Positions 9,760 to 36,744 of a DNA stretch of 36,744 bases are shown piece after piece. Under the pieces are notes generated by a model. The model was given only the letters and a program-made list of their open reading frames with translations. It ran no database searches and had not been told where the DNA came from. The first letter of the stretch is position 1. Each line of letters begins with the position of its first letter. The stretch spans positions 1-36,744 of the forward strand of contig JAJYAG010000055.1 in the NCBI GenBank assembly GCA_021779665.1, in the 5' to 3' direction. Source of the DNA: Bacteroidota bacterium. GTDB taxonomy: Bacteria > Bacteroidota > Bacteroidia > Bacteroidales > JAAUTT01. The position numbers and the translations under genes are program-made.

Positions 9760-11247
9760 ATGAAAACTAACTCTTTACAAACGTTTACTGCTGCTATAAT
9801 TATTCTGTTGATGGGCCTTTCAGCTCAATCACAACCTTGGAAAGATCATGGAAAACTAGTGGTTGAATCCATGAATCCTCATTATCTGCAATACCAGGAT
9901 GGTACCTCTTTTTTCTGGTTTGCAGATACAGGCTGGGAAATGCTCCACCGCCTCAACAGGGATGAGATTACAAAATATCTTGAAAACAGAAAATTGAAAG
10001 GTTTCAATGTGATTCAAACTGTTATTATAAGTGAGTTTATTCACATGGATAAGGTCACAAACTTTTATGGCGACAGTATTTTTGTTAACGAAAATCCTGA
10101 AAAACCCCTGATCACTCCGGGTTCAAACCCTGATAACGGCCGCGAATACGATTTTTGGGATCATGTGGATTACGCTGTCCAGACTGCTGAAAAGAACGGA
10201 TTGTATCTGGCACTTGTGCCATCGTGGGGCGAATGGGTTACTCCCCGCAGCGACAAGGCCTTGTTTAACACAGTGGAACAGGCGTATAATTACGGTTGTT
10301 TTCTTGGGAACAGGTATAAAACTTATCCGAATATTATTTGGATGCTTGGTGGTGACAGGCATCCCAACGAAAGAAATATTGGAATTGACCTCTGGCGTGC
10401 TATGGCCGAAGGAATTACCGATGGTACCACCGGGGAGAGGAACCTCAATGGTAAAGCCGATTACCCGGCAACCCTCATAACACATCATTCTTATAATTCA
10501 TCTTCCAACTGGTTTCATAACGACGGCTGGATCGATTTTCATACCTGGGGCTCGTACCACGCCGAAATTGATAACCCAAGATCCATAGAACTGGCACTGG
10601 CTGATTGGAACCTTAAAAATCCGAAGCCTACGCTTAATTCGGAGCCATGTTACGAAGGGGGAGGAATAAATTATGCCATCGACGATAATGGTTATTTCAC
10701 CTCTACCGACGTAAGGATTGCTGCTTACTGGAGTGTTTTTTCGGGTGGTGCCGGCATAACCTATGGCTGTCAGCCCATCTGGCAATTTACTGACCAAAGC
10801 CGGAAAAAGCATTCACCGAAAACAATCATGGACTGGAAAGAAGGATTAGACTTGCCTGGCGCCGTTCAGTTAGGTTACTTAAAAAAGCTCATAACATCGA
10901 GAGATATGAAAAACTTACGTCCTGATCGTTCCATGCTGATTTCGGGAATGGGAAGCTGCTCCTCGTATGCGCCTGTGCTTAAAGGTAAATCGCATGCTTT
11001 TATTTATATTCCAACCGGTAATAGTATTAAAGTGAAATTGGGTGAGATTTCAGGTACTAAAATTAAAGCTTCCTGGTTTAATCCACGTACGGGTACTTTT
11101 ACTTTTATCGGAGAATTTGTAAATTCCGGCGATAAAGATTTCAAGGTGCCGGGCATGTCGGCAGATTTAACATGGTTGCGGTCGGGCCGGGGATGCGACT
11201 GGGTGCTGGTGCTCGATGATGCTTCTGTTCAGTTTTCAGTGCAATGA
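9760..11247 (+). CDS. Secreted GH140-like glycosidase (DUF4038 plus C-terminal beta domain)
   Basis: A 495-residue exported protein with a signal peptide (MKTNSLQTFTAAIIILLMGLSAQSQ) and a DUF4038 TIM barrel (about 30-390), followed by a small beta domain of the type annotated as putative collagen-binding (about 400-490). The family includes GH140 apiosidases that cut apiose-linked side chains of rhamnogalacturonan II. Catalytic candidates match that family: Asp199 in WMLGGDRHP and Glu295 in LNSEPCYEG. The early motif FWFADTGWEML is also typical. Apiosidase activity is not proven; DUF4038 proteins cover other substrates. The serine hydrolase starts 34 bases downstream and a paralogue follows, so the three genes probably share a transcript. 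Confidence 0.82.
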   Translation: MKTNSLQTFTAAIIILLMGLSAQSQPWKDHGKLVVESMNPHYLQYQDGTSFFWFADTGWEMLHRLNRDEITKYLENRKLKGFNVIQTVIISEFIHMDKVTNFYGDSIFVNENPEKPLITPGSNPDNGREYDFWDHVDYAVQTAEKNGLYLALVPSWGEWVTPRSDKALFNTVEQAYNYGCFLGNRYKTYPNIIWMLGGDRHPNERNIGIDLWRAMAEGITDGTTGERNLNGKADYPATLITHHSYNSSSNWFHNDGWIDFHTWGSYHAEIDNPRSIELALADWNLKNPKPTLNSEPCYEGGGINYAIDDNGYFTSTDVRIAAYWSVFSGGAGITYGCQPIWQFTDQSRKKHSPKTIMDWKEGLDLPGAVQLGYLKKLITSRDMKNLRPDRSMLISGMGSCSSYAPVLKGKSHAFIYIPTGNSIKVKLGEISGTKIKASWFNPRTGTFTFIGEFVNSGDKDFKVPGMSADLTWLRSGRGCDWVLVLDDASVQFSVQ

Positions 11248-12646: not shown

Positions 12647-13978
12647 ATGCGAAAGTTGTTGCTTATGTTTTTTGCACTTCTGCAAGTATTGGCAGGATTT
12701 TCACAACCGAGGTTTCCGCTTAAAATCAGCGAGAACAAGCGCTATTTTGTCGACTCGGGCGGAAAACCTTTTCTGTATCATGCCGATACCGGCTGGCAAA
12801 TTTTTGTTCAGCTTACCGTTGAGGAAGCCGTTGAGTATATGAGTTTCAGAAAGGCACAGGGATTCAATACCATTCAGGTCCAGGTGGTGATGTCGCCCGA
12901 ACAGGTAAATCGTTATGGCCAAAAGGCATTTTATGGCGATGCCGATTTTTCGAAACCCAATGAGGCATATCACGATCATATAGCCAAAGTGCTGGCAAAA
13001 GCCGATTCTCTGGATTTACTTGTTGTAATGTCCGGCCCCTGGTTAGGATGTTGCATGGAAGCATTTGGGGGCAGTCCCGATAAACCTTATCAGAAAAACG
13101 GACCGGATAAGTGCAGGCAATATGGTAAATATCTCGGGAAGAAATTTTCGAAGTTTAAGAATCTGTTCTGGATCACAGGTGGTGATAACGACCCAAAGGG
13201 CGATCGGGCAAGTCTTTTTGCTTTTATTGAAGGACTATACGAAACGGCACCCAAACATCAACTCATAACATATCATGCATCGCCAACCCGCTCCAGTACC
13301 GATTTGTTCCAATATGCGCCCTGGCTTGGTTTTAGTTTTATATACACCTACTGGCGCGAAAAACCCAACAGCTGGGTAACTCACGATATGTTACCTCATG
13401 TTTATGAAGTGGCTCTGCGCGAATGGGGTAAATCGGACAAAATGCCGTTTGTACTCGGAGAAGCTCAGTACGAAGGTACAGGGTTGATTGATAATGATAT
13501 GGGAGAGCCTCAGATTGTCCGCAGGCAGGCATATTGGACCATGTTGTGCGGAGGTGCCGGTCATGCCTATGGATCTGATTTATGGAATTTCCCGACGAAC
13601 TGGCGTGAGATTGTGAAATATCCCGGCGCTTATCAAATGGGGTATTTCATTAAGTTTTTTGAGCAAATTCCATGGTGGACACTTGTTCCGGATGTTGGGC
13701 ACAAAGCTGTAATTGCCGGGTTTGGCGACTGGGCAAAACCTGATTATGCAACCACAGCAGTGAGTAACGATAAAAAGCTTCTGGTATCCTATATCCCTTA
13801 CCTTACATCGTTAACTGTTGATTTTGGTTACCTGGAAGGAAATAAATTCTCTGTAAAGTTTTTCGATCCGCGCAGGGGAAAATTCATTAAGGAAACAACG
13901 GTAGAAAAGAAAACTGTTCAGCGGTTACAATCTCCTCCGGGAGAAGATTTGGTGTTGTTAATTCAGGCAGGTAATTAA
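12647..13978 (+). CDS. Second secreted GH140-like glycosidase (DUF4038)
   Basis: A 443-residue paralogue of the enzyme encoded at 9760. It has a signal peptide (MRKLLLMFFALLQVLAGFSQ) and a DUF4038 barrel with the shared early motif LYHADTGWQIF, then Asp180 in WITGGDNDP and Glu272 in VLGEAQYEG as catalytic candidates. The C-terminal beta domain (about 355-440) is shorter than in the first copy and contains the family-like FFDPRRGKF. The spacing of the Asp/Glu pair (92 residues) is close to that of its paralogue (96), but loops such as GPWLGCCMEAFGG differ, so the two probably cut different linkages. It ends 16 bases from the convergent lipoprotein operon. Confidence 0.82.
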   Translation: MRKLLLMFFALLQVLAGFSQPRFPLKISENKRYFVDSGGKPFLYHADTGWQIFVQLTVEEAVEYMSFRKAQGFNTIQVQVVMSPEQVNRYGQKAFYGDADFSKPNEAYHDHIAKVLAKADSLDLLVVMSGPWLGCCMEAFGGSPDKPYQKNGPDKCRQYGKYLGKKFSKFKNLFWITGGDNDPKGDRASLFAFIEGLYETAPKHQLITYHASPTRSSTDLFQYAPWLGFSFIYTYWREKPNSWVTHDMLPHVYEVALREWGKSDKMPFVLGEAQYEGTGLIDNDMGEPQIVRRQAYWTMLCGGAGHAYGSDLWNFPTNWREIVKYPGAYQMGYFIKFFEQIPWWTLVPDVGHKAVIAGFGDWAKPDYATTAVSNDKKLLVSYIPYLTSLTVDFGYLEGNKFSVKFFDPRRGKFIKETTVEKKTVQRLQSPPGEDLVLLIQAGN

Positions 13979-16329: not shown

Positions 16330-18486
16330 ATGAAAAAGATATTTTTACTATTAATTTTGAGCCTGCTTCAATGGAATTTAAAGTCGCAGCCTTATCCTTT
16401 TCAAAATCCAAAACTTGACGATGAGAAAAGGCTGGATAATTTAATTTCATTGCTAACACTTGATGAAAAAGTCAACTGTCTTTCCACGCGCTTAAATGTT
16501 CCCCGGCTGGGAATTACCGGAACCCGTATTGTAGAAGGGTTGCATGGTTTAGCGCTTAGCGGTCCGGCTAACTGGGCTGTTAAAGGTAAGGGCGCATCGG
16601 TTACAAGTACCTTTCCCCAGGCTATCGGTCTGGCGCAAATGTGGGATCCTGACCTGCTTACTCAACTTGCGTCTCTTGAAGCTGAGGAATGCCGCTACCT
16701 TTCCCAGAACGAAAAATATAAAAGTGCCGGGTTGATCATGCTTGCTCCAAATGCCGACTTGGGTCGGGATATTCGCTGGGGAAGAACAGAGGAATGTTAT
16801 GGTGAAGACGCTTTCTTAAATGCTTCGCTCGTGGTGGCTTTTGTGAAAGGCCTTCAGGGAAACGATCCCAAATACTGGAAAACAGCATCGCTGATGAAGC
16901 ACTTTCTGGCAAACAGCAACGAAAATAACCGAACCATCAACTCATCCGACTTCGACGATCGTCTTTTCCGCGAATATTATTCCTATCCTTTCTACAAGGG
17001 CGTGACTGAAGGCGGTTCCAGGGCTTACATGGCAGCATATAACAAGTATAACGGTATTCCATGTACCGTTCACCCCATGCTTACCAACATTACCGTTAAG
17101 GAATGGGGGCAGAACGGGATTATTGCCACCGATGGGGGAGCTTACCGACTGCTGGTTACCGCTCACAAATATTATCCTGATCTGGTTACAGCCGCGGCAG
17201 GATGCATAAAATCGGGCATTACCATGTTTCTCGATAATTACAGAGACCCTTTAAAGGAAGCGCTCACAAAGCAGATGATTACAGAGCAGGAAATAAATGC
17301 TGCGATCAGGGGTAATTTACGAGTAATGCTGAAATTGGGTCTTTTGGATGAGAATCCTGCCAATCCTTATTCCAAAATCGGGATTGCCGATACCATTGCT
17401 CCATGGACTAAACCGGAGAATCAAAACATGATTCGTACAGCAACTGCAAAATCGGTTGTATTGATGAAGAACGAAAAAAATATTCTTCCCATAGATAAAG
17501 GAAAAGTAAAATCGATAGCAGTTGTAGGGCCTGCAGCAAACTTTGTAACTTCCGACTGGTATGCAGGGAAACCTCCTTACGCGATTTCGGCATTGCAGGG
17601 TATTAAAAATGCTGTCGGCGAGGATGTGAAAATTCGGTTCGCTGCCAGCAACAAAGCCGATTCGGCAGTGATTGCAGCTAAGGAGTCGGATTTGGTTGTT
17701 GTTTGCGTGGGAAATCACCCGTTGGGCTTTAATCTGCCGTGGGGTGTAAATTATGTTCCCAGCGATGGTCGCGAAGATGTGGATCGTCAGGCAATATCGC
17801 TGGAGCAGGAGGATCTTGTAAAACTTGTGTATGCAGCAAATCCCAATACAGTGATGGTTCTGGTATCGAGTTTTCCCTATGCAATTAACTGGTCGAAAGA
17901 GCATGTGCCGGCAATTGTGCATATCACTCAATCGAGCCAGGAACTTGGCAATGGATTGGCCGATGTGCTTTTCGGAAAAGTGAGTCCGGCTGGCAGATTG
18001 GTGCAAACCTGGTCTGCTTCCATCGATCACCTGTTGCCAATTCTCGACTATAATATCCGCCACGGCCGCACTTATATGTACGATCAGCATACTCCTTTAT
18101 TTCCATTCGGTCATGGTCTTACATACACCACCTTTGAATATTCCGATTTTAAAACTTCAAAACCATCCATTAAAAACGGCGAGGTTGTGAATGTGAGTTT
18201 CAAACTTAAAAATTCAGGAAACTACGATAGCGACGAGGTTGCCCAGTTATACGCCAGCTTCCCGGGTTCGGCGGTTGACCGGCCGGCTAAAGCGCTCAAA
18301 GGTTTCAAAAGGATATATGTTCCAAAAGGACAAACGGTTGAAGTGGTTATTCCTGTCAGAGCCGACGACCTGAAATATTGGGACGTGACTAAGAATGCTT
18401 TTGTTCTGGAAAAGGGAACTGTGAAATTTGCGATTGGCGCATCTTCGGCAGATGTGAAACTGAATGGCCAGTTGGCAGTAAATTGA
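16330..18486 (+). CDS. Secreted glycoside hydrolase family 3 enzyme
   Basis: A 718-residue exported glycosidase of the beta-glucosidase/beta-xylosidase type. After a signal peptide (MKKIFLLLILSLLQWNLKSQ) come the GH3 N-terminal barrel (about 30-345), the alpha/beta sandwich (about 370-600) and a fibronectin-III-like domain (about 625-715). Motifs include GRDIRWGRTEECYGED (145-160), Lys190-His191 with the following NE, and the nucleophile candidate Asp268 in GIIATDGGAY, where most relatives have SDW. Exact sugar specificity cannot be read from this. Upstream, TTTG at 16257-16260 and TAATTTAC at 16281-16288 form a weak promoter candidate. It is divergent from the lipoprotein operon, consistent with one polysaccharide-use region. 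Confidence 0.9.
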   Translation: MKKIFLLLILSLLQWNLKSQPYPFQNPKLDDEKRLDNLISLLTLDEKVNCLSTRLNVPRLGITGTRIVEGLHGLALSGPANWAVKGKGASVTSTFPQAIGLAQMWDPDLLTQLASLEAEECRYLSQNEKYKSAGLIMLAPNADLGRDIRWGRTEECYGEDAFLNASLVVAFVKGLQGNDPKYWKTASLMKHFLANSNENNRTINSSDFDDRLFREYYSYPFYKGVTEGGSRAYMAAYNKYNGIPCTVHPMLTNITVKEWGQNGIIATDGGAYRLLVTAHKYYPDLVTAAAGCIKSGITMFLDNYRDPLKEALTKQMITEQEINAAIRGNLRVMLKLGLLDENPANPYSKIGIADTIAPWTKPENQNMIRTATAKSVVLMKNEKNILPIDKGKVKSIAVVGPAANFVTSDWYAGKPPYAISALQGIKNAVGEDVKIRFAASNKADSAVIAAKESDLVVVCVGNHPLGFNLPWGVNYVPSDGREDVDRQAISLEQEDLVKLVYAANPNTVMVLVSSFPYAINWSKEHVPAIVHITQSSQELGNGLADVLFGKVSPAGRLVQTWSASIDHLLPILDYNIRHGRTYMYDQHTPLFPFGHGLTYTTFEYSDFKTSKPSIKNGEVVNVSFKLKNSGNYDSDEVAQLYASFPGSAVDRPAKALKGFKRIYVPKGQTVEVVIPVRADDLKYWDVTKNAFVLEKGTVKFAIGASSADVKLNGQLAVN

Positions 18487-23833: not shown

Positions 23834-25048
23834 CTACAAATGCACCCCGAAAGGTTCCTGATCCAAAACTGTGGACCACTGCTGTATCAGCTTTTTATAT
23901 TCAATGCCAACAGGTCGTATTTTTCTGTCCATATCAAATAAACCCAGTGCATTTATGGTTCCGTTATCCTCACGCAGAGCGGTATTCCAATCTACCTGGT
24001 CGATAAGGCTGTACCAGGTAAATCCAAGCAGCGGAACACCTTCCTGACGGAGGTGGTAAGCATTTGTCCATTGCTTTTTCAGCCAGTTGGTGGATAAGGG
24101 TTCGAGCAAATTTGTTTCGGTATGCATTACCGGAAGGTTATACCTGTTAAAATACTGGTGTGTAATAACATGATAACCAAAAATTTCGCCCGAAGCGCTT
24201 GTCATTCCGTTGGAATGCACCAGATGCTCGTTGGTGATATAATAATCGTTACCCATAATACACCTGTATGTATTGGCATTGTTCATAAACCAATGATACT
24301 CGGTTTTTGTCATTCCATTTTCGAGCAAAAACTCATACATGGGTACACTTATTGGATAACCATAAACCAAATCGAGCGAAAGAAAACGCCGTTCGTTTAA
24401 AACATTGGATAATTCCATACAAGATGGCTCTTCGGGGTGAAAATATTCAGCCGATTCACTTTGTATAAAAACTGCTTCAGGCTGAATCTTTAAAATTGCC
24501 TTCATGGACAGAATATTAGCTTTGCATAGATTTTTCAGAGCAATCACAAAATATTTATCCCCGGAGAGACGCTCGTTCCACCAGCCGTGAGATGCCGAGA
24601 ATGTTGCTGCTATAAAGATTTCGTTTATAGGAGTGTAAATCTGGCACCATGGGTATCTTTGTGCAAAAGCAGCACTATATTCGGCAAAATGTTCCGGAAA
24701 ATCTGCATTTTGGAAGTTTCCAAGCCAATCGGGAACTCCAAAATGACAAAGGTCCACAATGGGAGTTATGTCCATTTCCTTCATGGCATTAAAAACTTCG
24801 TCGGTAAAGCTCCAATCGTACTTTCCCGGGCCAACATGGGTCGAATAGAGCGGAGGCCCATATCTTAAAAAGTTAATGCCTATTTCTTTTGTAAGTTCAA
24901 AATCTGTTCTCCAGTTTTGGTAATGTTTTGCTTTCTCCATCTCATCAATTCTTTTGGTGCTTCCATCGGGTAATTGTATGGTGGGGTAACTGTTCTCTAT
25001 TCCAGTAGCAAACATGAACTTTCTCATGGATCCTATCATCGCATTCAA
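23834..25048 (-). CDS. GH1-like (clan GH-A) protein without signal peptide
   Basis: A 404-residue TIM-barrel protein resembling family 1 glycosidases. The acid/base candidate is Glu143 in YTPINEIF (TFNEP-like in GH1) and the nucleophile candidate Glu311 in VMHTETN (ITENG-like). It starts without a hydrophobic leader (MRKFMFATGIENSYP at residue 8), so it should act in the cytosol. ATGs at 25048, 25039 and 25027 are all possible starts. It begins 13 bases after the stop of the GH1-like/RmlD-like fusion gene, with which it shares the barrel type, and it lies in a cluster of sugar-nucleotide and glycosyltransferase genes. A biosynthetic or trimming role is therefore more likely than food-polysaccharide degradation, but that is inference. 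Confidence 0.75.
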   Translation of the reverse strand: MNAMIGSMRKFMFATGIENSYPTIQLPDGSTKRIDEMEKAKHYQNWRTDFELTKEIGINFLRYGPPLYSTHVGPGKYDWSFTDEVFNAMKEMDITPIVDLCHFGVPDWLGNFQNADFPEHFAEYSAAFAQRYPWCQIYTPINEIFIAATFSASHGWWNERLSGDKYFVIALKNLCKANILSMKAILKIQPEAVFIQSESAEYFHPEEPSCMELSNVLNERRFLSLDLVYGYPISVPMYEFLLENGMTKTEYHWFMNNANTYRCIMGNDYYITNEHLVHSNGMTSASGEIFGYHVITHQYFNRYNLPVMHTETNLLEPLSTNWLKKQWTNAYHLRQEGVPLLGFTWYSLIDQVDWNTALREDNGTINALGLFDMDRKIRPVGIEYKKLIQQWSTVLDQEPFGVHL

Positions 25049-25061
25049 ATATTTAAGTGTT

Positions 25062-27227
25062 TCAGATTACTTGTTGTAAGGGATTATTTTTTAATTCATT
25101 AAAATAGCTGGCCAAACTAGCTTGTATCGGAGGCAGAACAATTCCCTGCGAGCTTTTCAGAACAGAATAGGAGGGGCGCTCTGCTGAGAAGTTGAGTTTC
25201 TCATAAGGCTGAGGCAAAACGTGTTTATTGCTTTTTTCTGCAAGGTTCAAAGCCAGTTGAATAAAACTGAAATGCGACATTTCATCTGGTCCCGACAGAT
25301 GCCAGATACCAGATTCATTGTCTATAAGTAAATCCAGTGATTGATTTACAAGATCGGGGATATAGGTTGGAGAAATAATTATATCAGAAGGCAGAAAAAT
25401 TTGATTACCGGGGGTTGATGCAGTGTGTAAAGCTGCCCTCAGCGGATCGTCGTTTGTCCAGGGATTAAAAAAGAAACTGCTTCTTATAATCAAAGCGTTG
25501 GAGTTGTTTTTGAGTACAAATTCTTCCGCCATTTTTTTCGATTCGCCATATCGATTAAGCGGTTCTGTAAAATCGTTTTCGACATATGGATTTTTCTTTT
25601 TGCCATTAAAAACCTGGTCGGTCGAGAAGGTGAGATATCTTATGTTAGCCGATTTACACACCTGCGACAGCAGCACAGCTCCCAGCGTATTTTCTCTGAA
25701 GCATTTCTGGGGAAAGGCTTCTGCTTTGTCGATATCCGTAAATCCCGCAGCATTAATTATTGCCCAGGGATTAGTTTTTGAAAGAAATCTTTCCATCGAT
25801 GCCATCGACGCTATATCGAACTGGTCGCGGCTTAGAAGTTTATATGTTATTCCCCTGAGGGTGCAAATGTGTGCAAATGCCTGACCTAGTGAACCATTAG
25901 CCCCAATTATCAACAAAGGTGAGTTATTCCTTTTACTTCCTTCGGATTTGTGGTCCTTTTTTGAAAAATTGTAAAGTATCCGGATGTCTCTTTTCCACCA
26001 ACCTTCAGTTTCGAGTAACGGATGAGACGAATAACCTTTGGAATTGAGCTCTTTAATGAGGTGCGCAAGAGCTGTTGGTCGTGGAGATCCTGGTCTCAGA
26101 TCGTAAATTCCCGATTCGTACCATTTATTCTGAACCTGGAGAAGTGAGTTCCAATCGTAACTTCCAAGAATGGACCAGGCTGTAATAGCTCTGAAATCGA
26201 CTCCTTCACTTTTCAATCGGAGTGCAGTATTGTAGGCCTCATTGAACCAACGTAGCTGCTCTTCACGTGTACATCCCAGATGAACTTCCGAAAGCGCCAG
26301 TGGTAATTTATATCTTTCCCAGCTTTCTTTCAATAAACCATAGAAACCAACCGGCTCAATTTTGCCTATACGTACAGCCTCAACATCGGCATAATCCATT
26401 TTTCCGTTGCCACCGTGATAGCGTCGCGGGTACCGGTATTTTTTTTCGTCGAGATACCGTTCACTGGTAACATAATAATTGAAACCGCAGATATATGGAG
26501 TACAGATGTTTTTTGCAAAGAAATCAAGCTCTTTCCGTTTTATTCCGTTTTTAATGAAGTATTTCCAGAAAGGATGTTCAGGGTTCAGTTTTCCTGTTAG
26601 GATATCGTAAGTAAGCCAGCGTCTGTTATTCTCAAATTCAGCCTGTTTTTTAAGAGCAGGAGTGCTGTGAATTTTACAGATATCTTCAGTTTGAACTAAT
26701 TTGGCGTCTGGATTTATCTCTCTGATTTTTTGCATCGACAATACAATACCTTTCATCTCATTCAGAAAGATTCGGGCAAAGGATTTGTCAGATTGATAGT
26801 GAGGGTACCAGATTCCATAAAGACCCGAAAACCTTGCTGTTGTAAGGGGTTCGTTTATGGGATTATAATACTCTATCCACGGGTATCGTTGAGCAATAAC
26901 AGCTGCATATTCTGCAATACGTTCCGGAAAATCTGACTGGGATAGATCTGTGAAAAATGGTCCGCTGCCATGGTGCAGCAATCCTGCTATTGGAGTAATA
27001 TTAAGTTCCCGGAGTCTTTCAAATCGTTTGTCGTGCAACGAAAGGAAATTCTCCGGGTTCTTAAAGTATTTTTCCCATAAAATAGGATATCGTATTGTAC
27101 GGATTCCTAAATCTGCAATAAGCTCCAGGTCGTTTGGCCTCGCTTCGTGGCCATTTAATTTCAACTGATCATGTACTTTATTTCTAACCCGGGCTACAGT
27201 ACATTCTACGCCTCCCCAAATTTCCAT
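25062..27227 (-). CDS. Fusion protein: GH1-like barrel plus RmlD-like NAD(P)-dependent reductase
   Basis: A 721-residue two-domain protein. Residues 1-400 form a GH1-like barrel with Glu126 in NPINEPL as acid/base and Glu314 in ALSEVHLG as nucleophile candidate. A short charged linker (about 420-436) leads to residues 437-715, an SDR domain of the dTDP-4-dehydrorhamnose reductase (RmlD) type: the Rossmann motif is GANGSLG (442-448), Ser535-Thr-Asp lies in TFSTDQVFNG, and the catalytic pair is Tyr560/Lys564 in YGESK. No signal peptide. The reductase half would reduce a 4-keto NDP-sugar; the barrel half may act on a glycoside of that sugar. Both domains look intact. The neighbours are a second GH1-like gene 13 bases downstream and a glycosyltransferase gene upstream. 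The fused order is unambiguous in one frame. Confidence 0.8.
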   Translation of the reverse strand: MEIWGGVECTVARVRNKVHDQLKLNGHEARPNDLELIADLGIRTIRYPILWEKYFKNPENFLSLHDKRFERLRELNITPIAGLLHHGSGPFFTDLSQSDFPERIAEYAAVIAQRYPWIEYYNPINEPLTTARFSGLYGIWYPHYQSDKSFARIFLNEMKGIVLSMQKIREINPDAKLVQTEDICKIHSTPALKKQAEFENNRRWLTYDILTGKLNPEHPFWKYFIKNGIKRKELDFFAKNICTPYICGFNYYVTSERYLDEKKYRYPRRYHGGNGKMDYADVEAVRIGKIEPVGFYGLLKESWERYKLPLALSEVHLGCTREEQLRWFNEAYNTALRLKSEGVDFRAITAWSILGSYDWNSLLQVQNKWYESGIYDLRPGSPRPTALAHLIKELNSKGYSSHPLLETEGWWKRDIRILYNFSKKDHKSEGSKRNNSPLLIIGANGSLGQAFAHICTLRGITYKLLSRDQFDIASMASMERFLSKTNPWAIINAAGFTDIDKAEAFPQKCFRENTLGAVLLSQVCKSANIRYLTFSTDQVFNGKKKNPYVENDFTEPLNRYGESKKMAEEFVLKNNSNALIIRSSFFFNPWTNDDPLRAALHTASTPGNQIFLPSDIIISPTYIPDLVNQSLDLLIDNESGIWHLSGPDEMSHFSFIQLALNLAEKSNKHVLPQPYEKLNFSAERPSYSVLKSSQGIVLPPIQASLASYFNELKNNPLQQVI

Positions 27228-27309: not shown

Positions 27310-28605
27310 CTACGGAACCACAACGCTGCTGCTTGCTACACTAAGTACCTTGCTTGCCGGGGTGAGTTCTTTGGTGCTTACGGCTACTTTTGCATCCAGG
27401 GTAGCCATAATTATTCTTTTCATACCCTGCCATGTTAAATCCCACGAATTGGATTTTAAAACCTGACGAACTTTCTTTTTCCAGTTTTTATCATTTATCA
27501 GAAGACGGGCTTTTTCAATTGCCTGTGCAAAATCATTTACTGTATCTGCGATAAGGACCAGCCCCATTTCACCGTAAGGAACAACCACATCGCGTATGGA
27601 TGTTGAAATCACTGGTTTTTCGCAACATAAATATTCGGGTGTTTTGGTAGGACTGATAAACCTTGTGCTGTCGTTTTTGGCAAAAGGGAGCAATGCAATG
27701 TCCCAGTTACCCAGGTAAGCAGGAAGCTCACTGTAATTTTTCTGCCCCAGGTAAAAGATATTTGAATGTCGGGGCAGCATGGCCGGATCAATTTTGACAA
27801 CCGGTCCAATCATAACAAAGTTTATGTGAGGCATTTTTTGTGCCAGACCGTCGAGTAATTCAATATCCAGTCTTTCGTCAATTACGCCAAAAAAACCGGC
27901 TCTTGGGTGAGGGATATTGGCCTGATCTTCAGGATCGCTGACTTGCAAACCGCTTTCGAAATGCTTCTGGTCTATACTGCTTGGGAATGGGTAAATATTT
28001 GTATGCTTGTCTTTTTTATATTCGTATAAATATTGTCCTCCGGTAAAAACAACATCGGCTAATTTCAGTAGCGATGCTTCATTTTTTATCATATCGGGAT
28101 GAGCACCTTTAAAATGTGAAAGTTCATCCATACAATCGTAAACTACTATTTTGGGGTTCAGGTTCTTTGAAAACGGCAAAGCCATAGGAGTTATATACCA
28201 GAAAAGATAATCGGTAATGTTATTCCACTTAATCAGCTTTTTAATTGCGTCTTCAAGGTATTGCTGAATTTCACTCTCGCCCGATTGCTCCTGAATGTGG
28301 GGTGTAATGATGGTAATATTTTCGTTATATGTTCGTGCTTTTAAATAATTTACTTCAAAGTTGCCAAAAATAGGTTCTTCGATATAATACACCGGCATTT
28401 CCTTTGCCCAGCGGGTGAGCAGATGCTGTGGACGTTGAAACACAAAGTCCCAGCGCAGATGAGAAAAGCAGATTATATTTTTAATACCGGGTTCTGAAAC
28501 TAACGTTTGAGTGTTTTGTTTTTTTTTTGAACTTTTTAATGTAATCAATTTTTCATGGGCTGTTTTTTTTTTAAAATCAATTTCCCGTACTTTGATAGAA
28601 TCCAT
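27310..28605 (-). CDS. Glycosyltransferase, GT-B fold (TuaH-like), with two A10 tracts near the start
   Basis: A 431-residue predicted cytosolic glycosyltransferase. The body starts about residue 41 (NIICFSHLRWDFVFQRPQHL), has VYDCMDE (156-161), and carries the nucleotide-sugar-binding block SPTKTPEYL (318-326) characteristic of GT4-like retaining enzymes. Residues 1-40 are a Lys-rich extension encoded partly by two runs of ten A on the coding strand (28563-28572 and 28519-28528). Such runs are prone to polymerase slippage, and one base gained or lost would truncate the protein. The gene lies between the 46-codon ORF (54 bases upstream) and the fusion gene (82 bases downstream). Together with nearby UDP-galactopyranose mutase it probably builds a glycan containing galactofuranose; donor and acceptor are unknown. 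Confidence 0.83.
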   Translation of the reverse strand: MDSIKVREIDFKKKTAHEKLITLKSSKKKQNTQTLVSEPGIKNIICFSHLRWDFVFQRPQHLLTRWAKEMPVYYIEEPIFGNFEVNYLKARTYNENITIITPHIQEQSGESEIQQYLEDAIKKLIKWNNITDYLFWYITPMALPFSKNLNPKIVVYDCMDELSHFKGAHPDMIKNEASLLKLADVVFTGGQYLYEYKKDKHTNIYPFPSSIDQKHFESGLQVSDPEDQANIPHPRAGFFGVIDERLDIELLDGLAQKMPHINFVMIGPVVKIDPAMLPRHSNIFYLGQKNYSELPAYLGNWDIALLPFAKNDSTRFISPTKTPEYLCCEKPVISTSIRDVVVPYGEMGLVLIADTVNDFAQAIEKARLLINDKNWKKKVRQVLKSNSWDLTWQGMKRIIMATLDAKVAVSTKELTPASKVLSVASSSVVVP

Positions 28606-28943: not shown

Positions 28944-30077
28944 TTACTTTTGAAGATTATCGAACATTTCCAATGCATGATTAATAGTATCGTGCATATC
29001 GTAATATTTATATTCTCCAAGCCGTCCGCTTATGACAATGTTTTTTAAATTCCGGGCTTCTTCCCGGTATTTCAGAATCAGATTCTGATTTCTTTCATCA
29101 TTAATCGGATAATAGGGATTGCTTCCGTCGTCGAGCAACGAAAATTCTTTTATAATCAGTGTTTTATCCGTTGGGTAATCAGTCCGTTCGGGATGAAGAT
29201 GCCGTGGTTCATGAATACGTGTAAAGGGAACCTCCACATCGGCGTAGTTCATTACCGAAGTGCCCTGATAATCTTCATATGGTTGCACTTCCCTTTCAAA
29301 ACGAAGTGTTCTGTATTCCAGTTTACCGTATTTATAATCAAAATACTGATCGATGGGTCCGCTGTATATAATTTTTGTTTCCTTAGGTATGATGTCTCTT
29401 ATCTTGAAGAAGTCAAGGTTGAGTTTAACCTCAATCTCATCATAGTCCAGCATTTTTTCAAAAATTTTCCCGTAACCGTGAAGTGGTATTCCCTGCCAGC
29501 GGCTGAAGTAATAACTTTCGTTATAGTTTGATCGGAAAGGCAGTCTCTTCAAAACGCTTTCGGGCATATCTTTGGGATCTTTTTGCCACTGCTTAAGGGT
29601 ATATCCTCTTATAAAGGCTTCGTATAATGGCCGGCCCATCATACTTATGGCTTTTTCCTCAAAGTTGCGGGGCTCTTTTATGTTTTCCTTTTCAATTTCT
29701 TTTTTTAGAAAGGCTTCGACTTCAAAGGGTTTTAAACTGACATTGTAAAAGGTATTAATTGTTTCGAGGTTAACTGGCATTTGAAATACCCGCCCCTTAT
29801 GGGTTGTAAGCACCTGATGAAAATACCCGTTAAACTCGGTGAAACGATTGATGTACTCCCAAACGCGTGGATTGGGCGTGTGGAAAATGTGCGTTCCATA
29901 AAGATGATAATGAATACCTGTTTCAGCATCGTCGAGTGAATAGCAATTGCCTCCAATATGGTTTCTTTTTTCTATAACTAATACTTTTTCTTTGAGTTGT
30001 GTGGCTATTCTCTCAGCCATAACGGATCCAAAAAAGCCACTGCCTACTACGAGGTACTTAAGTCCGGATAAACCCAT
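28944..30077 (-). CDS. glf: UDP-galactopyranose mutase
   Basis: A 377-residue flavoenzyme that interconverts UDP-galactopyranose and UDP-galactofuranose, supplying Galf for cell-surface glycans. The FAD-binding Rossmann motif is VGSGFFGS (11-18), followed by the family-typical IEKRNHIGGNCYS (35-47) and GIHYHLYGTHIFHT (54-67). The C-terminal part contains the conserved YYPINDERN and SGRLGEYKYYDMHD segments. The length is normal and no key region is missing. It acts in the cytosol. It follows the small membrane-protein gene by 37 bases, so both probably use the sigma-54-like promoter at 30610-30624. A weak hairpin (GTAAT-CCAC-ATTAC on the minus strand) overlaps its stop and is followed by five T, a possible partial terminator. 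Confidence 0.96.
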   Translation of the reverse strand: MGLSGLKYLVVGSGFFGSVMAERIATQLKEKVLVIEKRNHIGGNCYSLDDAETGIHYHLYGTHIFHTPNPRVWEYINRFTEFNGYFHQVLTTHKGRVFQMPVNLETINTFYNVSLKPFEVEAFLKKEIEKENIKEPRNFEEKAISMMGRPLYEAFIRGYTLKQWQKDPKDMPESVLKRLPFRSNYNESYYFSRWQGIPLHGYGKIFEKMLDYDEIEVKLNLDFFKIRDIIPKETKIIYSGPIDQYFDYKYGKLEYRTLRFEREVQPYEDYQGTSVMNYADVEVPFTRIHEPRHLHPERTDYPTDKTLIIKEFSLLDDGSNPYYPINDERNQNLILKYREEARNLKNIVISGRLGEYKYYDMHDTINHALEMFDNLQK

Positions 30078-31017: not shown

Positions 31018-32136
31018 ATGTACAAAAAAGTACTGATAACCGGAGGTGCGGGTTTCATTGGTTCGCATCTTACTGATCAATTGTTATTACATGGATATAG
31101 TGTCAGAATTCTGGATAATCTGTCGGAACAGATACACGGTCCCGGACAACGTCCGCCGAAATATCTTGATCCTGAAGCGGAACTGATTATTGGCGATGTC
31201 CGGACCCCTGCCGATGTGCAGCGTGCTCTTAAAAATGTGGATATGGTTGTGCATCTTGCTGCCAGTGTCGGTGTTGGGCAGAGCATGTATATGGTGCGCG
31301 ATTATATGGATGTTAACACAATGGGAACTGCAGTGTTGTTGCAGCATCTGATTGAAAAACCTGTGGAAAAACTGGTGGTCGCATCCAGCATGAGTATATA
31401 CGGAGAAGGTTATTATAAAACCTCTGAGGGTGAAATTATTGAAGGTTTTCCCCGATCTCTCGAACAATTAAAGGCTGGTGAGTGGGAGTTATCCGACACG
31501 AACAACAACAGGCTGGAACCGGTTCCTACTGATGAATCCAAGCATCCGGCTCTGGCTAGTGTTTATGCTTTGTCCAAGTACGATCAGGAGCAGCTTTGTT
31601 TAATGCTGGGTCGGGCTTACAACATTCCTACCGTTGCACTTCGCTTTTTTAATGTTTATGGCACACGGCAATCCTTGTCGAATCCTTATACAGGAGTTCT
31701 GGCCATTTTTGCTTCGCGGCTGTTAAACTATAATGCACCTCTGATTTTCGAAGATGGAAACCAGATGCGCGATTTTGTAAGTGTTTACGATGTAGCCAAA
31801 GCATGCCGCCTGGCCCTTGAAACACCTGGAGCTGCCGACAATGTTTTCAATGTTGGAAGTGGTAATTCTTACTCTGTTCAGGAAATTGCACGACAATTAG
31901 GATATGTTTTGGGTAAATCGTCCATTGAACCCGAAATTACACGAAAATACCGCTTGGGCGATATAAGGCACTGTTTTGCTGATATTTCCAAAGCAAGAAG
32001 CGTTCTGGGTTATGAACCTGAAATTAACCTTCAGGAAGGTTTGTATGAATATACCGAATGGTTAAGTACCCAAATAGCTATGGACATGGTAGATAAAGCA
32101 CACAGCGAACTTGCAACCAGAGGTTTGACAATATAA
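31018..32136 (+). CDS. NAD-dependent NDP-sugar epimerase/dehydratase (extended SDR)
   Basis: A 372-residue extended short-chain dehydrogenase acting on a nucleotide sugar in the cytosol. The Rossmann motif is GGAGFIGSH (9-17), the substrate-side motif is SSMSIYGEG (123-131), and the catalytic pair is Tyr183/Lys187 in VYALSKYDQE. The insert around 36-50 (SEQIHGPGQRPPKYL) and the overall sequence resemble dTDP-L-rhamnose 4-epimerase/WbiB-like proteins more than GalE; the exact sugar is uncertain. It is first in the plus-strand block, behind the sigma-54-like promoter at 30956, and is separated from the next gene by 106 bases containing a hairpin. Confidence 0.85.
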   Translation: MYKKVLITGGAGFIGSHLTDQLLLHGYSVRILDNLSEQIHGPGQRPPKYLDPEAELIIGDVRTPADVQRALKNVDMVVHLAASVGVGQSMYMVRDYMDVNTMGTAVLLQHLIEKPVEKLVVASSMSIYGEGYYKTSEGEIIEGFPRSLEQLKAGEWELSDTNNNRLEPVPTDESKHPALASVYALSKYDQEQLCLMLGRAYNIPTVALRFFNVYGTRQSLSNPYTGVLAIFASRLLNYNAPLIFEDGNQMRDFVSVYDVAKACRLALETPGAADNVFNVGSGNSYSVQEIARQLGYVLGKSSIEPEITRKYRLGDIRHCFADISKARSVLGYEPEINLQEGLYEYTEWLSTQIAMDMVDKAHSELATRGLTI

Positions 32137-32196
32137 TACGTGAAATGGATCTGAGCTTTTACTGCAGATTCAATTTTCAGTTATGCGAATAATGTG

Positions 32197-32220
32197 ATGA
32201 TGGCTGTAACATGCCATCAT
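32197..32220 (+). terminator. Intercistronic hairpin after the first epimerase gene
   Basis: ATGATGGC (32197-32204) and GCCATCAT (32213-32220) form a perfect 8-bp stem with an 8-base loop, followed by GTTATTTT. The weak T tail suggests partial termination or transcript-end protection rather than a full stop. Confidence 0.5.
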
Positions 32221-32242
32221 GTTATTTTAAAAAGTTACACAC

Positions 32243-33379
32243 ATGAAAGGTCCCAACAAGAAAATAGTAACTCCCGATGGTAAAAACGGAGACGAATTAT
32301 ATTTAAAATCAGTTCACGCAAAAGCTCAGCGCGAAAAAGGTATTCTGATTACAGGAGGTGCCGGATTCATAGGAACAAATGTGGCCGACAGGCTGTTAAC
32401 ACAGGGTGAGAGGGTAATTATTTATGATAACCTTTCGAGGCCGGGAGTTGAAAATAATTTAAAATGGCTGGTAGCCAAACACCCCAAAGTTGAGGTATTT
32501 ATTGCAGATGTTAAGGACAAACACCTCGTTAGTAAAGCCGTTAACGAAGCAAAGCATATATTTCATTTTGCTGCTCAGGTTGCTGTTACAACCAGTTTGG
32601 TATCGCCGGTGCACGATTTTGAAGTGAATGTTCTGGGTACACTCAACGTTCTGGAGGCAATCCGACTTTCCTCTCATAAACCCTCTCTTATTTTTACTTC
32701 AACAAATAAGGTTTATGGAGATCTTACAGGACTTGAACTCGAAAGCAACAGCACCCGGTATTTTCCGGTTAACCCGGTTTACAACAAAAACGGAATCAGT
32801 GAAAATATTTCTCTCAATTTTCACAGTCCTTATGGATGCTCAAAAGGCTCGGCCGACCAGTATATTCTGGATTATACCCGCTCTTTCGATTTACGTACCG
32901 TAGTTTTCCGTATGAGTTGTATTTATGGTCCTCACCAGTTTGGTACAGAAGATCAGGGGTGGGTGGCTCATTTTATCCGTCAGGCGTTAAATAAGAAAAC
33001 AATTGTTTTATATGGCGATGGCAAACAGGTTCGCGACATTCTTTACGTGGACGATCTTGTGAATGCCTTTTTACTTGCCCGCGAAAATATATCCGAACTT
33101 GCCGGCCTAGCTTTCAATATGGGCGGTGGACCCGAAAATGCGGTCAGTCTGGTTGAGTTGCTCGATTTTCTCAATAGCCTCGATCAGCTTAAGATAAAGG
33201 TAGATTTGGACCAATGGCGCATCGGCGATCAGAAATATTATGTTTCCGATACCCGCAAATTTAGAAAAGCAACCGGCTGGCGACCACAATTTTCTTACCA
33301 GGAAGGACTAATAAATCTCTTTAGCTGGCTAAGTGAATATCACGAAAATACTGTCCCCGAAAAAACTATAGCTCAATAA
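32243..33379 (+). CDS. NDP-sugar epimerase, CDP-paratose 2-epimerase-like
   Basis: A 378-residue extended SDR. After a 32-residue charged extension not usual in the family come GGAGFIGTN (38-46), FTSTNKVYGD (151-160) and the catalytic Tyr197/Lys201 in SPYGCSKGSA. The TNKVYG motif and the block MSCIYGPHQFGTEDQGWVAHF are close to CDP-tyvelose/paratose 2-epimerases (RfbE), which invert C2 of a 3,6-dideoxyhexose. The CDP-sugar synthesis genes that pathway needs are not in the window, so the substrate may be another NDP-sugar. Only one in-frame ATG precedes the Rossmann motif. The dehydrogenase gene follows after 5 bases, so the two are tightly co-expressed. Confidence 0.83.
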   Translation: MKGPNKKIVTPDGKNGDELYLKSVHAKAQREKGILITGGAGFIGTNVADRLLTQGERVIIYDNLSRPGVENNLKWLVAKHPKVEVFIADVKDKHLVSKAVNEAKHIFHFAAQVAVTTSLVSPVHDFEVNVLGTLNVLEAIRLSSHKPSLIFTSTNKVYGDLTGLELESNSTRYFPVNPVYNKNGISENISLNFHSPYGCSKGSADQYILDYTRSFDLRTVVFRMSCIYGPHQFGTEDQGWVAHFIRQALNKKTIVLYGDGKQVRDILYVDDLVNAFLLARENISELAGLAFNMGGGPENAVSLVELLDFLNSLDQLKIKVDLDQWRIGDQKYYVSDTRKFRKATGWRPQFSYQEGLINLFSWLSEYHENTVPEKTIAQ

Positions 33380-33384
33380 AATAC

Positions 33385-34401
33385 ATGGATAATATTACTA
33401 CTTTAACAAAGCAAACTCCTCTGTTGTCAACGCCAAAACCTTCTTTAATGAAAGCGGCAGTTATTACAGCTCCGCGCAATATTGATTTTGCAAATGTTGC
33501 TGTTCCGGTTCCCGGGCCTGGTCAGGTTTTAATCCGGATTGAAGGATGCGGTATCTGCGGCTCGGATCTGCCCGTGTGGGAAGGTCGCGAATGGTTTCAG
33601 TATCCTTATAAAACAGGAGCCCCGGGTCACGAGGGGTTTGGGATTGTTGAAGAAATGGGACCTGATGTGAATTCGGTAGCTGTGGGCGACAGGGTTGCCA
33701 TGCTTTCCTATAATTCCTATGCTGAGTTTGATGTGGCTGAGGCCAGTCAGGTTGTGAAACTTCCCCGGCAGTTTGATGAAATTCCTTTCCCTGGCGAACC
33801 TCTGGGATGTGCGATAAATATATTTAACCGTTCCCGGATTACAAGCCTCGACACTGTTGCAGTAGTTGGTGCAGGGTTTCTGGGGAATCTTTTAATTCAG
33901 CTTTGCAAATCTGTCGGGGCTAATGTTATTGCGATCTCCCGACGCGAAAGTTCATTAAAAATGGCCTTTGAATGTGGTGCCGATCACATTGTAAAAATGG
34001 ACGATCATTACAAGGTGATCCAAAAGGTAAATGAGTTAACACGCAACGAAGGTTGCAGCAGGGTAATAGAAGCTACTGGTAAGCAGTGGCCATTGGATAT
34101 CGCCGGAGAGATTGTTGGTATAAGAGGAATCCTCATAATTGCCGGATTTCATCAGGACGGACTCCGTCAGGTGAATGTTCAGAACTGGAACTGGAAAGGC
34201 ATTGATGTAATAAATGCTCATGAACGTGACCCCCGCGAATATGTTAAGGGAATGCAACTTGCCATGGAAGCTGTTGCCGCAGGTACCTTAAATCCGGCTC
34301 AGTTGTATACCCATCATTATGAATTCGGTGAGCTAAACAGGGCTTTTGAAGATATGTCGGCCGGAAAGGATGGCTATATCAAAGGGATAGTTAAAATGTG
34401 A
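33385..34401 (+). CDS. Zinc-dependent medium-chain dehydrogenase lacking the structural zinc loop
   Basis: A 338-residue MDR-family oxidoreductase, probably oxidising or reducing a sugar or cyclitol alcohol with NAD(P). Catalytic zinc ligand candidates are Cys58 in CGICGSD, His82/Glu83 in GHEG and Glu138/Cys142 in GEPLGC. The cofactor motif is GAGFLG (162-167). The four-cysteine structural-zinc loop normally near residues 90-115 is absent, as in some sugar and quinone-type members. The first 21 residues are extra and the true start may be the ATG at 33448. The gene is 5 bases after the epimerase and 259 bases before the Gfo/Idh/MocA gene. A role in making the same unusual sugar is inferred from position. 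Confidence 0.85.
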   Translation: MDNITTLTKQTPLLSTPKPSLMKAAVITAPRNIDFANVAVPVPGPGQVLIRIEGCGICGSDLPVWEGREWFQYPYKTGAPGHEGFGIVEEMGPDVNSVAVGDRVAMLSYNSYAEFDVAEASQVVKLPRQFDEIPFPGEPLGCAINIFNRSRITSLDTVAVVGAGFLGNLLIQLCKSVGANVIAISRRESSLKMAFECGADHIVKMDDHYKVIQKVNELTRNEGCSRVIEATGKQWPLDIAGEIVGIRGILIIAGFHQDGLRQVNVQNWNWKGIDVINAHERDPREYVKGMQLAMEAVAAGTLNPAQLYTHHYEFGELNRAFEDMSAGKDGYIKGIVKM

Positions 34402-34660
34402 TATAATAGGCTTCATAACCAAGAGGTTGTGTGAAAAGTCAACGAGCAGTCATATTTCGCACTTCGGCAAGCTCAATAGCTGATTTTCAAGCGTCAGACT
34501 GAGCGTGATCGAAGTCTTTCCACACTTTTCGAACGACCTCAGAAAGAACACTCAGTTTAAACGCGTTGCCCGTTCAAAGGGGTTGTGAGAGATTTTAAAG
34601 CTGAAGGAACGGAGTCGAACTTCGTTCAGCGGCATACTTTAACAAAAATTCATTTTTAAA
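34402..34660. repeat. Spacer with REP-like palindromic repeats
   Basis: This 259-base spacer contains an imperfect long hairpin: ACTTCGGCAAGCTCA (34461-34475) faces TGAGCGTGATCGAAGT (34500-34515), with outer arms GTGTGAAAAGTC and GTCTTTCCACAC. A second small hairpin pairs GCTGAA with TTCAGC, around AACGGAGTCGAACTTCG, near 34600-34633. The words CTTCG..GCTCAG and GGAGTCGAA recall dispersed extragenic palindromes of Bacteroidota genomes. No gene was found, and its base composition is more GC-rich than other spacers here. Confidence 0.55.
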
Positions 34661-35689
34661 ATGTATAACGACCAAAACGAAGTAATTACGCAAACAAAAC
34701 CCAAAATTGGATTTATTGGTGTGGGGTGGATTGGTTTAAACCGGATGAACGCAATGCTGAAGGAGAATCTTATTACTGTGGATTACATTGCCGATTCATC
34801 AGAAGAGAGTTTGTTAAAAGCCCAGCAGGCCGTGCCGGATGCAAGCCTTTATCTTACTCTCAACGAAGTTTTGGATGAAGAACCAGATGGCATTGTAATA
34901 GCTACTCCAAGTGCCATGCATGCATCACAAGCAATTGCAGCGTTAGAAAAAGGTATTTCGGTATTTTGTCAGAAACCTTTGGCACGAACTGCCCAAGAAA
35001 CATCCTTGGTGGTCAGTGCTGCCGAAAAATCGGGCAAATTGCTGGGTGTTGATTTTTCTTACAGGTTTACCGAAGGAATGCAGAAAATAAACCAATTAAT
35101 CAAGTCGAAAGCTTTTGGGAAAATTTTTGCAGTTAATCTTGTTTTCCACAATGCTTATGGGCCTGATAAGGAGTGGTTTTACAAACCTGAACTCTCAGGC
35201 GGAGGCTGTGTAATCGATCTCGGGAGCCATTTAATCGATCTGGCATTATGGATCCTCGATTTTCCCGAAGTTTCAAATGTTTCTTCCTCTTTGTTTTCCG
35301 GTGGTAAACCAATTGCTATTCCCGAAACCGAAACGGAAGATTTTGCCATAGCAAACATCGAAACTAAGACCGGCACTACCATCCAACTGGCTTGTAGCTG
35401 GAATTTGCAGGCCGGGCAGGATGCTGTTATCGAAGCCACATTTTATGGTACTGAAGGTGGAGCTGCCTTCAGAAATATCGACGGTTCCTTCTTTCATTTC
35501 GAAGCTTATAAATTTCATCTGAAGACTAAAAGGGAAATACTTACATCTCAAACACCCGACGACTGGGGCGGACGTGCCGCCACTGACTGGGCCCGGAAAC
35601 TATCCAAAGGAGAAGGATTCAACGCAGAGGCTCATCAGTTTGTGAAAGTCGCTGAGGTTATTGACCGTATTTACAAAAGGGAAGTATGA
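34661..35689 (+). CDS. Gfo/Idh/MocA-family oxidoreductase
   Basis: A 342-residue NAD(P)-dependent oxidoreductase of the family that acts on sugars, NDP-sugars and inositols. The cofactor motif is GFIGVGWIG (17-25). The usual EKP motif reads Gln104-Lys105-Pro106, keeping the catalytic lysine. The C-terminal alpha/beta domain carries GGGCVIDLGSHLIDLALW, whose Asp/His pair belongs to the active site. The length is typical. It ends in a 4-base ATGA overlap with the following glycosyltransferase start, so these two are translationally coupled. With the MDR dehydrogenase and two epimerases it suggests a multi-step sugar modification pathway; the substrate is unknown. Confidence 0.9.
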   Translation: MYNDQNEVITQTKPKIGFIGVGWIGLNRMNAMLKENLITVDYIADSSEESLLKAQQAVPDASLYLTLNEVLDEEPDGIVIATPSAMHASQAIAALEKGISVFCQKPLARTAQETSLVVSAAEKSGKLLGVDFSYRFTEGMQKINQLIKSKAFGKIFAVNLVFHNAYGPDKEWFYKPELSGGGCVIDLGSHLIDLALWILDFPEVSNVSSSLFSGGKPIAIPETETEDFAIANIETKTGTTIQLACSWNLQAGQDAVIEATFYGTEGGAAFRNIDGSFFHFEAYKFHLKTKREILTSQTPDDWGGRAATDWARKLSKGEGFNAEAHQFVKVAEVIDRIYKREV

Positions 35690-36744
35690 AGATTTTAATG
35701 ACCACCGATACTATAGGTGGAGTTTGGACATATACCATGGATCTGATTAAAGGTCTGGAAAAGTATAAGGTGGAGGTTGTTTTAGCTACCATGGGCAATC
35801 CTCCTTCGTCGGCACAGATGGCTCAGGTTCGCAGGTTGAAAAGGGTTATTCTGGACACATCCAATTATAAACTGGAGTGGATGGATGATCCCTGGAAGGA
35901 TCTTGAAAGAGCTCACCGTTGGCTTTTACAGCTAACTTTTACCTTTAATCCCGATGTCATTCATTTTAACTCTTTTGCCTTTGACAGGAAGCACTTCAAT
36001 GCTCCGGTCGTCATGGTAGGTCATTCATGTGTTTTGTCGTGGTGGCAGGCAGTTAAGAACGAATCTGCACCATCTGAATGGCAGCGCTACGCCGAAACAG
36101 TAAAACGGGGGCTTAGATCGGCCGATGTTGTTGTTGCTCCATCGCATACCATGATGATGCACCTTATTGATAATTATGGCACTTTTAACAGGTCTCAGGT
36201 CATTTATAATTCCGGTGATGAATCGTTTTTCAAACCCGGGAAAAAGGAGAAAATAATATTCACTATGGGCCGCTTGTGGGACGAAGCCAAAAATCTGAAG
36301 CTTCTGACCGAAGTGGCCAGCCGGATTGAATATCCGGTATTTATTGCAGGTGATATTAAAACATGGAAAAAAACATCTCCTAACCTGCATTACCTGGGTA
36401 AACTGGATAAGAAAAGTATTGCCCGCTGGCTCTCCATTGCTTCGGTATTTGCTTTGCCTGCTTATTACGAACCCTTTGGATTATCGGTTCTCGAAGCTGC
36501 TTATTCGGGGTGCGCTTTGGTTCTTGGAAAAATTGATTCTTTACAGGAAATATGGAAGGAGAATGCTTTGTATTGTAATCCTCAGAATGCACAGGAGTTA
36601 AAAGATACCATTAACAGCCTCATGGCCGATGAAAAGATGCTTCAGCAATATTCTAACGCTGCCCTGAAACGTTCGTCCGACTTTAAACTAGCACAAATGG
36701 CCGGAGAGTATTATGCATTATATAATTCCCTTCTGGGTTCCTCC
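35686..36744 (+). CDS. GT4-family glycosyltransferase, partial (runs off the right edge)
   Basis: The frame opens at the ATG at 35686, overlapping the previous stop by 4 bases, and is open for 353 codons to the end of the window; family members are usually about 360-400 residues, so little is missing. The start MKILMTTDTIGGVWTYTMDL is a typical GT4 N-terminal domain. The donor-binding EX7E motif is Glu262 to Glu270 in YEPFGLSVLE, followed by AAYSGCALVLG. It should be a cytosolic retaining transferase that adds a sugar from a nucleotide donor to the glycan under construction. It continues the plus-strand biosynthetic block, so more genes of the cluster probably lie to the right. Confidence 0.87.
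   Translation, partial: MKILMTTDTIGGVWTYTMDLIKGLEKYKVEVVLATMGNPPSSAQMAQVRRLKRVILDTSNYKLEWMDDPWKDLERAHRWLLQLTFTFNPDVIHFNSFAFDRKHFNAPVVMVGHSCVLSWWQAVKNESAPSEWQRYAETVKRGLRSADVVVAPSHTMMMHLIDNYGTFNRSQVIYNSGDESFFKPGKKEKIIFTMGRLWDEAKNLKLLTEVASRIEYPVFIAGDIKTWKKTSPNLHYLGKLDKKSIARWLSIASVFALPAYYEPFGLSVLEAAYSGCALVLGKIDSLQEIWKENALYCNPQNAQELKDTINSLMADEKMLQQYSNAALKRSSDFKLAQMAGEYYALYNSLLGSS

Follow-up and report, generated by a model that had tools for sequence, protein, structure and literature searches.

What is a glycosidase-type barrel doing in one polypeptide with an RmlD-like reductase, among genes of glycan synthesis? The question is raised by a stretch of 36,744 nucleotides (the window; positions 1 to 36,744 of contig JAJYAG010000055.1, GenBank assembly GCA_021779665.1) from a Bacteroidota bacterium, in which a single frame of 721 amino acids (25062–27227, minus strand) joins a domain of glycoside hydrolase family 1 (GH1) to a domain resembling RmlD, the dTDP-4-dehydrorhamnose reductase. 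GH1 enzymes of bacteria are as a rule annotated as beta-glucosidases. Our comparisons suggest that this fusion belongs to a small galactofuranose module, mobile and cytosolic, and that its barrel acts on the glycoside of the module, re-transferring or trimming its sugar; we give this reading a probability of roughly 0.45.

The GH1-like (beta/alpha)8 barrel takes up residues 1–415 (25983–27227, minus strand; Pfam, structural alignment and profile alignment) and the RmlD-like short-chain dehydrogenase/reductase (SDR) domain residues 436–714 (25086–25922, minus strand; Pfam and structural alignment). Pfam GH1 is matched across residues 27–361 of 721 (E=1.7e-12; 46.9 bits against the PF00232 gathering score of 22.6), and RmlD_sub_bind across residues 438–706 (E=1.8e-49; 168.8 bits on PF04321). 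In an AlphaFold2 model made with 61 sequences (mean pLDDT 91.1, pTM 0.90), VIA-align superimposes residues 1–402 on the Thermotoga maritima GH1 beta-glucosidase 2j78_A (Z 37.8, rmsd 2.8, 374 aligned) and residues 436–714 on RmlD 1vl0_B (Z 37.4, rmsd 1.7, 275 aligned). Sequence and profile alignments to canonical GH1 enzymes place E126 (codon 26850–26852) on the acid/base and E314 (codon 26286–26288) on the nucleophile, so that neither catalytic glutamate is lost on alignment. The original prediction, made from the letters of this DNA, had described an intact barrel and an intact reductase in one frame, with E126/E314, GANGSLG and Y560/K564; every one of these positions is as it said, both folds match and the residues are conserved across relatives. 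No signal peptide was recognised by eye at the N-terminus of the fusion or of a second GH1-like protein encoded beside it. The fusion recurs in other genomes at 41–52% identity, which rules out chance or a frame artefact, as does the conservation of the catalytic residues across phyla; the same recurrence rules out a frameshift join as a general explanation.

Conservation was counted over 77 fusion rows (alignment A2; a further alignment, A3, held 61 rows). Every row has E126, E314, N125, H86, Y252, W351 and W359. The −1 site of GH1 enzymes also holds a glycone-binding Gln and Glu, which, from TmBglA (2j78), we take to be a feature of substrate specificity. Both positions have changed in the fusions: of 77 rows, the Glu is replaced by Asp in 56 and by Gly in 21, and the Gln by Asn in 73 and by Ala in two, including the window copy, the position of the Gln being mapped by approximate offset only. 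Since these two positions have changed while the catalytic residues stay in every row, the alignment argues that the catalytic machinery is kept and that the glycone pocket probably differs. The fusion barrel thus shares with GH1 beta-glucosidases the full fold, the acid/base and nucleophile glutamates, the Asn-Glu pair and the active-site Tyr and Trp, whereas it is only about 16–18% identical to them and scores far under the GH1 beta-glucosidase equivalog (TIGR03356; 51.3 bits against a cut-off of 478.5). A tree was built from 26 of the 77 A2 rows (each third one), from every second control and from the window's own copy. In it the fusion barrels form a group apart from 14 Bacteroidia GH1 rows (13 distinct); the split between fusion and canonical GH1 is clear, although long branches meet at it, and the deeper branching is only tentative. 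The host genome carries an ordinary GH1 beta-glucosidase at another place.

The genomic company of the fusion points to galactofuranose. Just upstream, on the same minus strand, lie a gene for a TuaH-like glycosyltransferase, a presumed galactofuranosyltransferase (27310–28605; 431 aa; Pfam Glyco_trans_1_4, with a partial NCBIfam TuaH match below cut-off), and glf, the gene of UDP-galactopyranose mutase (28944–30077; 377 aa; 345.1 bits on TIGR00031, cut-off 303.75). A genome scan gave at least 570 confirmed stretches in named genomes, of which the best 80, representing 79 distinct loci (labelled here with L numbers), were analysed; being the best 80, they lean towards copies close to the query. 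Linkage was counted in the 64 loci that have 4 kb or more of sequence before the barrel on its upstream side, the other 15 being set aside. Transferase and/or mutase lie within 4 kb of the fusion in 57 of the 64, and both in 48; upstream on the same strand, the mutase is found in 48 and the transferase in 54. As a control, 25 canonical GH1 beta-glucosidase loci were taken, all from Bacteroidia and representing 25 of the 40 matches listed, with flanks of about 5 kb per side (about 2.5–2.7 kb on one side of L177 and L185, and 4.1 kb on one side of L197). Neither transferase nor mutase was found in any of these 25 flanks, at 1e-8 or at 1e-3, and two fusion loci included as known positives were detected in the same 1e-3 run. 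The earlier expectation of a setting beside glycan-synthesis genes, with glf and a glycosyltransferase as neighbours, is therefore upheld well outside the window, and the homologues do not lie mostly beside transporters or degradative genes.

The partners are also fused to each other: transferase and mutase form a single frame of more than 700 amino acids in 29 cyanobacterial loci. In 16 loci, again all cyanobacterial, an epimerase gene follows the fusion directly (less than 600 bp, same strand), and the representative of that cluster, the only member scanned, is GalE above its cut-off. Among annotated plasmid regions, transferase and/or mutase occur in five of seven. In one gammaproteobacterial metagenome-assembled genome (L086:5164-7794, minus strand) an Amino_oxidase/NAD_binding_8 protein takes the place of GLF in the fusion with the transferase; this amine-oxidase-type part is possibly a eukaryote-type mutase, a likeness seen by eye where Pfam reports only Amino_oxidase.

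From these associations a sequence of steps may be proposed. Epimerase and UDP-galactopyranose mutase would supply UDP-galactofuranose (UDP-Galf), and the adjacent or mutase-fused TuaH-like transferase would move Galf to an acceptor. The GH1 barrel would then act on the resulting glycoside by a two-step retaining mechanism, with E314 as nucleophile and E126 as acid/base, most likely to re-transfer or trim a sugar of it (transglycosidase or editing activity) and not to break down nutrient glycosides. The RmlD-like domain would reduce an accessory carbonyl substrate. Transfer or editing appears more likely than digestion because of the constant company of the transferase, the cytosolic appearance of the protein, the precedent of plant GH1 enzymes considered below, and the lack of export or polymerisation genes: no flippase, polymerase, initiating transferase or export gene was recognised by eye in the neighbour clusters of four or more loci, for which no dedicated search was made. 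This apparent absence would suit a small glycoside.

Hydrolysis in a salvage pathway is nevertheless a serious rival. The barrel might hydrolyse imported galactosides or galactofuranosides, the galactose being recycled through Leloir genes and the mutase, and several observations weigh on this side, against transfer or editing. Linkage alone cannot separate transfer from hydrolysis, and GH1 enzymes are usually hydrolases. Genes that a salvage pathway would have lie near a minority of copies: within 10 kb, GH2 in 15 of the 79 loci (13 of them cyanobacterial) and, in cyanobacteria only, GH43 in 12, galactokinase in 15 and galT in 13. In two loci GH2 is the immediate same-strand neighbour of the fusion, 348 bp away in L073 and 63 bp in L086, and ABC sugar importer genes are found near the Deinococcus copy. 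Seven of the 64 loci (L065, L071, L075, L081, L091, L095 and L111) lack both partners within 4 kb, those of L065 being about 7–9 kb away; the plasmid regions L114 and L116 lack both as well, with sugar ABC transporter genes near L114, and a second GH1-only relative (L007/L144) is without transferase and mutase. In addition, the transferase is without a solved relative and is assigned to Galf by association only. Against salvage, the tight and constant partners of the fusion are transferase and mutase, not transporters, canonical GH1 loci are without them (0 of 25), and the catabolic genes of cyanobacterial loci are mostly kilobases from the fusion, on either strand. We consider salvage possible, if somewhat doubtful. 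A PhyH cluster likewise occurs within 10 kb in 19 of the 79 loci, all cyanobacterial; this cluster and those of galactokinase, galT, GH43 and GH2 were each identified from one scanned representative.

The galactofuranose module is supported further by loci in which barrel and reductase are not joined, since the barrel stays with the transferase and the mutase. In Mesorhizobium (L118) the barrel lies beside both and the reductase domain was not found at the locus; in Hymenobacter busanensis (L104:9992-12154) barrel and reductase are separate consecutive frames, again beside both. The reductase domain is thus probably dispensable in some carriers. A third, very divergent group was noticed near mutase or transferase genes (L115:2779-3933, L065:6115-7236 and L140:12286-13458), with L071 as a further member; it is GH1-like by weak similarity, and its three tested members gave no Pfam match at 1e-5.

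What, then, does the reductase domain do? It was originally suggested that it handles a 4-keto sugar, a glycoside of which the barrels would trim, transfer or quality-control. In its fuller form, the domain would turn an NDP-4-keto sugar into a deoxysugar, and the barrel would trim or transfer the latter. The RmlD fold (Z 37.4), the glycine motif and the YxxxK pair are indeed those of RmlD, and the residues are largely kept, with Y560 in 72 of the 77 rows, K564 in 74 and G442 in 76. DQxGxPT, which we take to be the RmlD signature, is nearly gone: its Q is present in only two of 77 fusions, whereas the host's own, separate RmlD carries it as DQIGTPT. The fusion reductase also falls below the RmlD equivalog TIGR01214 (179.1 bits against a cut-off of 224.05), on which the host's RmlD reaches 291.5 bits. 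The host has rmlA, rmlC and rmlD at other places in its genome, each above its NCBIfam cut-off, while homologues of rmlA and rmlC are found in none of the 79 loci (tblastn with the host RmlA and RmlC at 1e-10; rmlB was not searched). Together with L118, which keeps a barrel without the reductase domain, these results speak against a 4-keto sugar as the common substrate of the two domains, and that proposal now seems very improbable.

A scaffold role is another alternative: barrel and/or reductase might catalyse nothing and, by binding a substrate or nucleotide, regulate mutase and transferase in the way that the RmlD-like subunit MAT2B regulates MAT2A. MAT2B is among the fold matches of the reductase domain, and Y560 or K564 is missing in six of 77 rows, which would agree with such a role, but all 77 rows have the two catalytic glutamates as well as Y252, W351 and H86, and this makes it improbable. 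We think it probable that the RmlD-like domain works as an NAD(P)H reductase, with an accessory carbonyl compound as substrate.

The fusion is widely scattered. At 41–52% identity it occurs in Cyanobacteria, Bacteroidota, Acidobacteriota, Pseudomonadota and on a Deinococcus plasmid, and the 79 best loci, with groups assigned by hand, comprise 44 cyanobacterial, 25 Bacteroidota, six Pyrinomonadaceae and four Pseudomonadota copies. In 19 of 72,556 plasmid records a single place covers 80% or more of the query; carriers among the matches listed include Deinococcus, Azospirillum, Sphingobium and Caballeronia, and there the fusion group is mostly annotated as 'family 1 glycosylhydrolase'. In 296 sampled Bacteroidota genomes, close barrel matches were found in the window's genome and four others, three of which have the reductase domain; with so few matches, the fusion is sporadic in this sample of the phylum. 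A search of viral contigs with this one protein gave 11 pattern matches, with no relative among them. A bolder reading would be an undescribed galactofuranoside pathway shared horizontally by at least five phyla, with a cytosolic GH1 barrel as the dedicated transglycosidase in the synthesis of a furanose glycoside and the fused reductase finishing the product, maybe a stress protectant. The last idea comes from the carrier genera, many of which are presumably soil-crust or desiccation-tolerant organisms; as a whole, we think this extended version rather unlikely.

The families of all these parts are known; new are their arrangement, the altered glycone site and the linkage with galactofuranose. 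RmlD itself differs from the fused domain in having the DQxGxPT motif, rmlA and rmlC partners, a score above the equivalog cut-off and no barrel. Loci of UDP-galactopyranose mutase and galactofuranosyltransferase resemble the module in having glf (TIGR00031) with a glycosyltransferase. The module is set apart by its TuaH-like transferase, by the GH1-RmlD partner and by a conserved neighbourhood in which neither flippase nor polymerase was recognised by eye. Plant GH1 transglycosidases have, to our knowledge, no glf partner. These enzymes, SoGH1 and the SFR2 family, resemble the proposed barrel in turning GH1 catalysis to synthesis, a likeness drawn without sequence comparison; SoGH1 of soapwort is described as a cytosolic GH1 that works in biosynthesis as a transglycosidase (PMC11782082). 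No description of the fusion or of the module was found in the open-access literature searched, where large result lists were viewed in part, and the available part of an Actinoplanes paper (PMC13390465) contains nothing on a GH1-RmlD fusion.

Linkage ties this GH1-RmlD group to galactofuranose synthesis, and in many cyanobacteria its partners, transferase and mutase, are one fused protein. A barrel that transfers would be a bacterial GH1 enzyme with a synthetic role, and would open a way to a galactofuranoside in Nostoc, Microcoleus, Mucilaginibacter and Deinococcus. Should the barrel hydrolyse instead, an activity of galactofuranosidase type would be indicated in GH1, of which we know no description. 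In either case many annotations would change.

The second GH1-like gene of the window (group b; probably 23834–25027, minus strand) encodes a protein, 404 aa long when read from the TTG at 25048, that matches Pfam GH1 (E=1.8e-11; 43.6 bits against the PF00232 gathering score of 22.6), stays below the TIGR03356 cut-off of 478.5 (54.4 bits) and resembles 2cet_B (VIA-align Z 34.1, rmsd 2.8, 334 aligned) in a weaker model (pLDDT 77.2). Its catalytic glutamates, E143 and E311, are kept in 21 of 21 homologues, and in the tree it falls in a separate group (support 97/94). It had been placed 13 bases after the fusion. The gene stands, and the gap is probably larger, as that distance depends on the TTG at 25048 where the frame opens; homologues begin near 'M..FMFATGIE', so the start is probably ATG 25027 (a gap of 34) or 25039 (a gap of 22). 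The two GH1-like genes of the window are not a fixed unit, since the second (at 60% identity or more) is found in the available flanks of the fusion in only four of 79 loci, and the transferase adjoins a second-group gene in only one (L140) of eight plasmid and six genome regions. Plasmids of Deinococcus, Methylocystis, Phenylobacterium and Hymenobacter (L119, L130, L131, L133, L134 and L136) carry second-group homologues of 57–64% identity without a fusion partner. Neighbours in this group are often stress-type genes, among them PRC-barrel, GroESL, Hsp20, Dps-type and metal or arsenic resistance genes.

Elsewhere in the window, 31018–36744 holds a divergent cluster with two SDRs, a zinc alcohol dehydrogenase, a Gfo/Idh oxidoreductase and a GT4 transferase, which ends at the contig edge and whose genes did not cluster with those around fusion relatives. 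A carbohydrate region contains two similar-looking proteins of secreted type (9760–11247 and 12647–13978) and a GH3-like protein (16330–18486), all named by eye.

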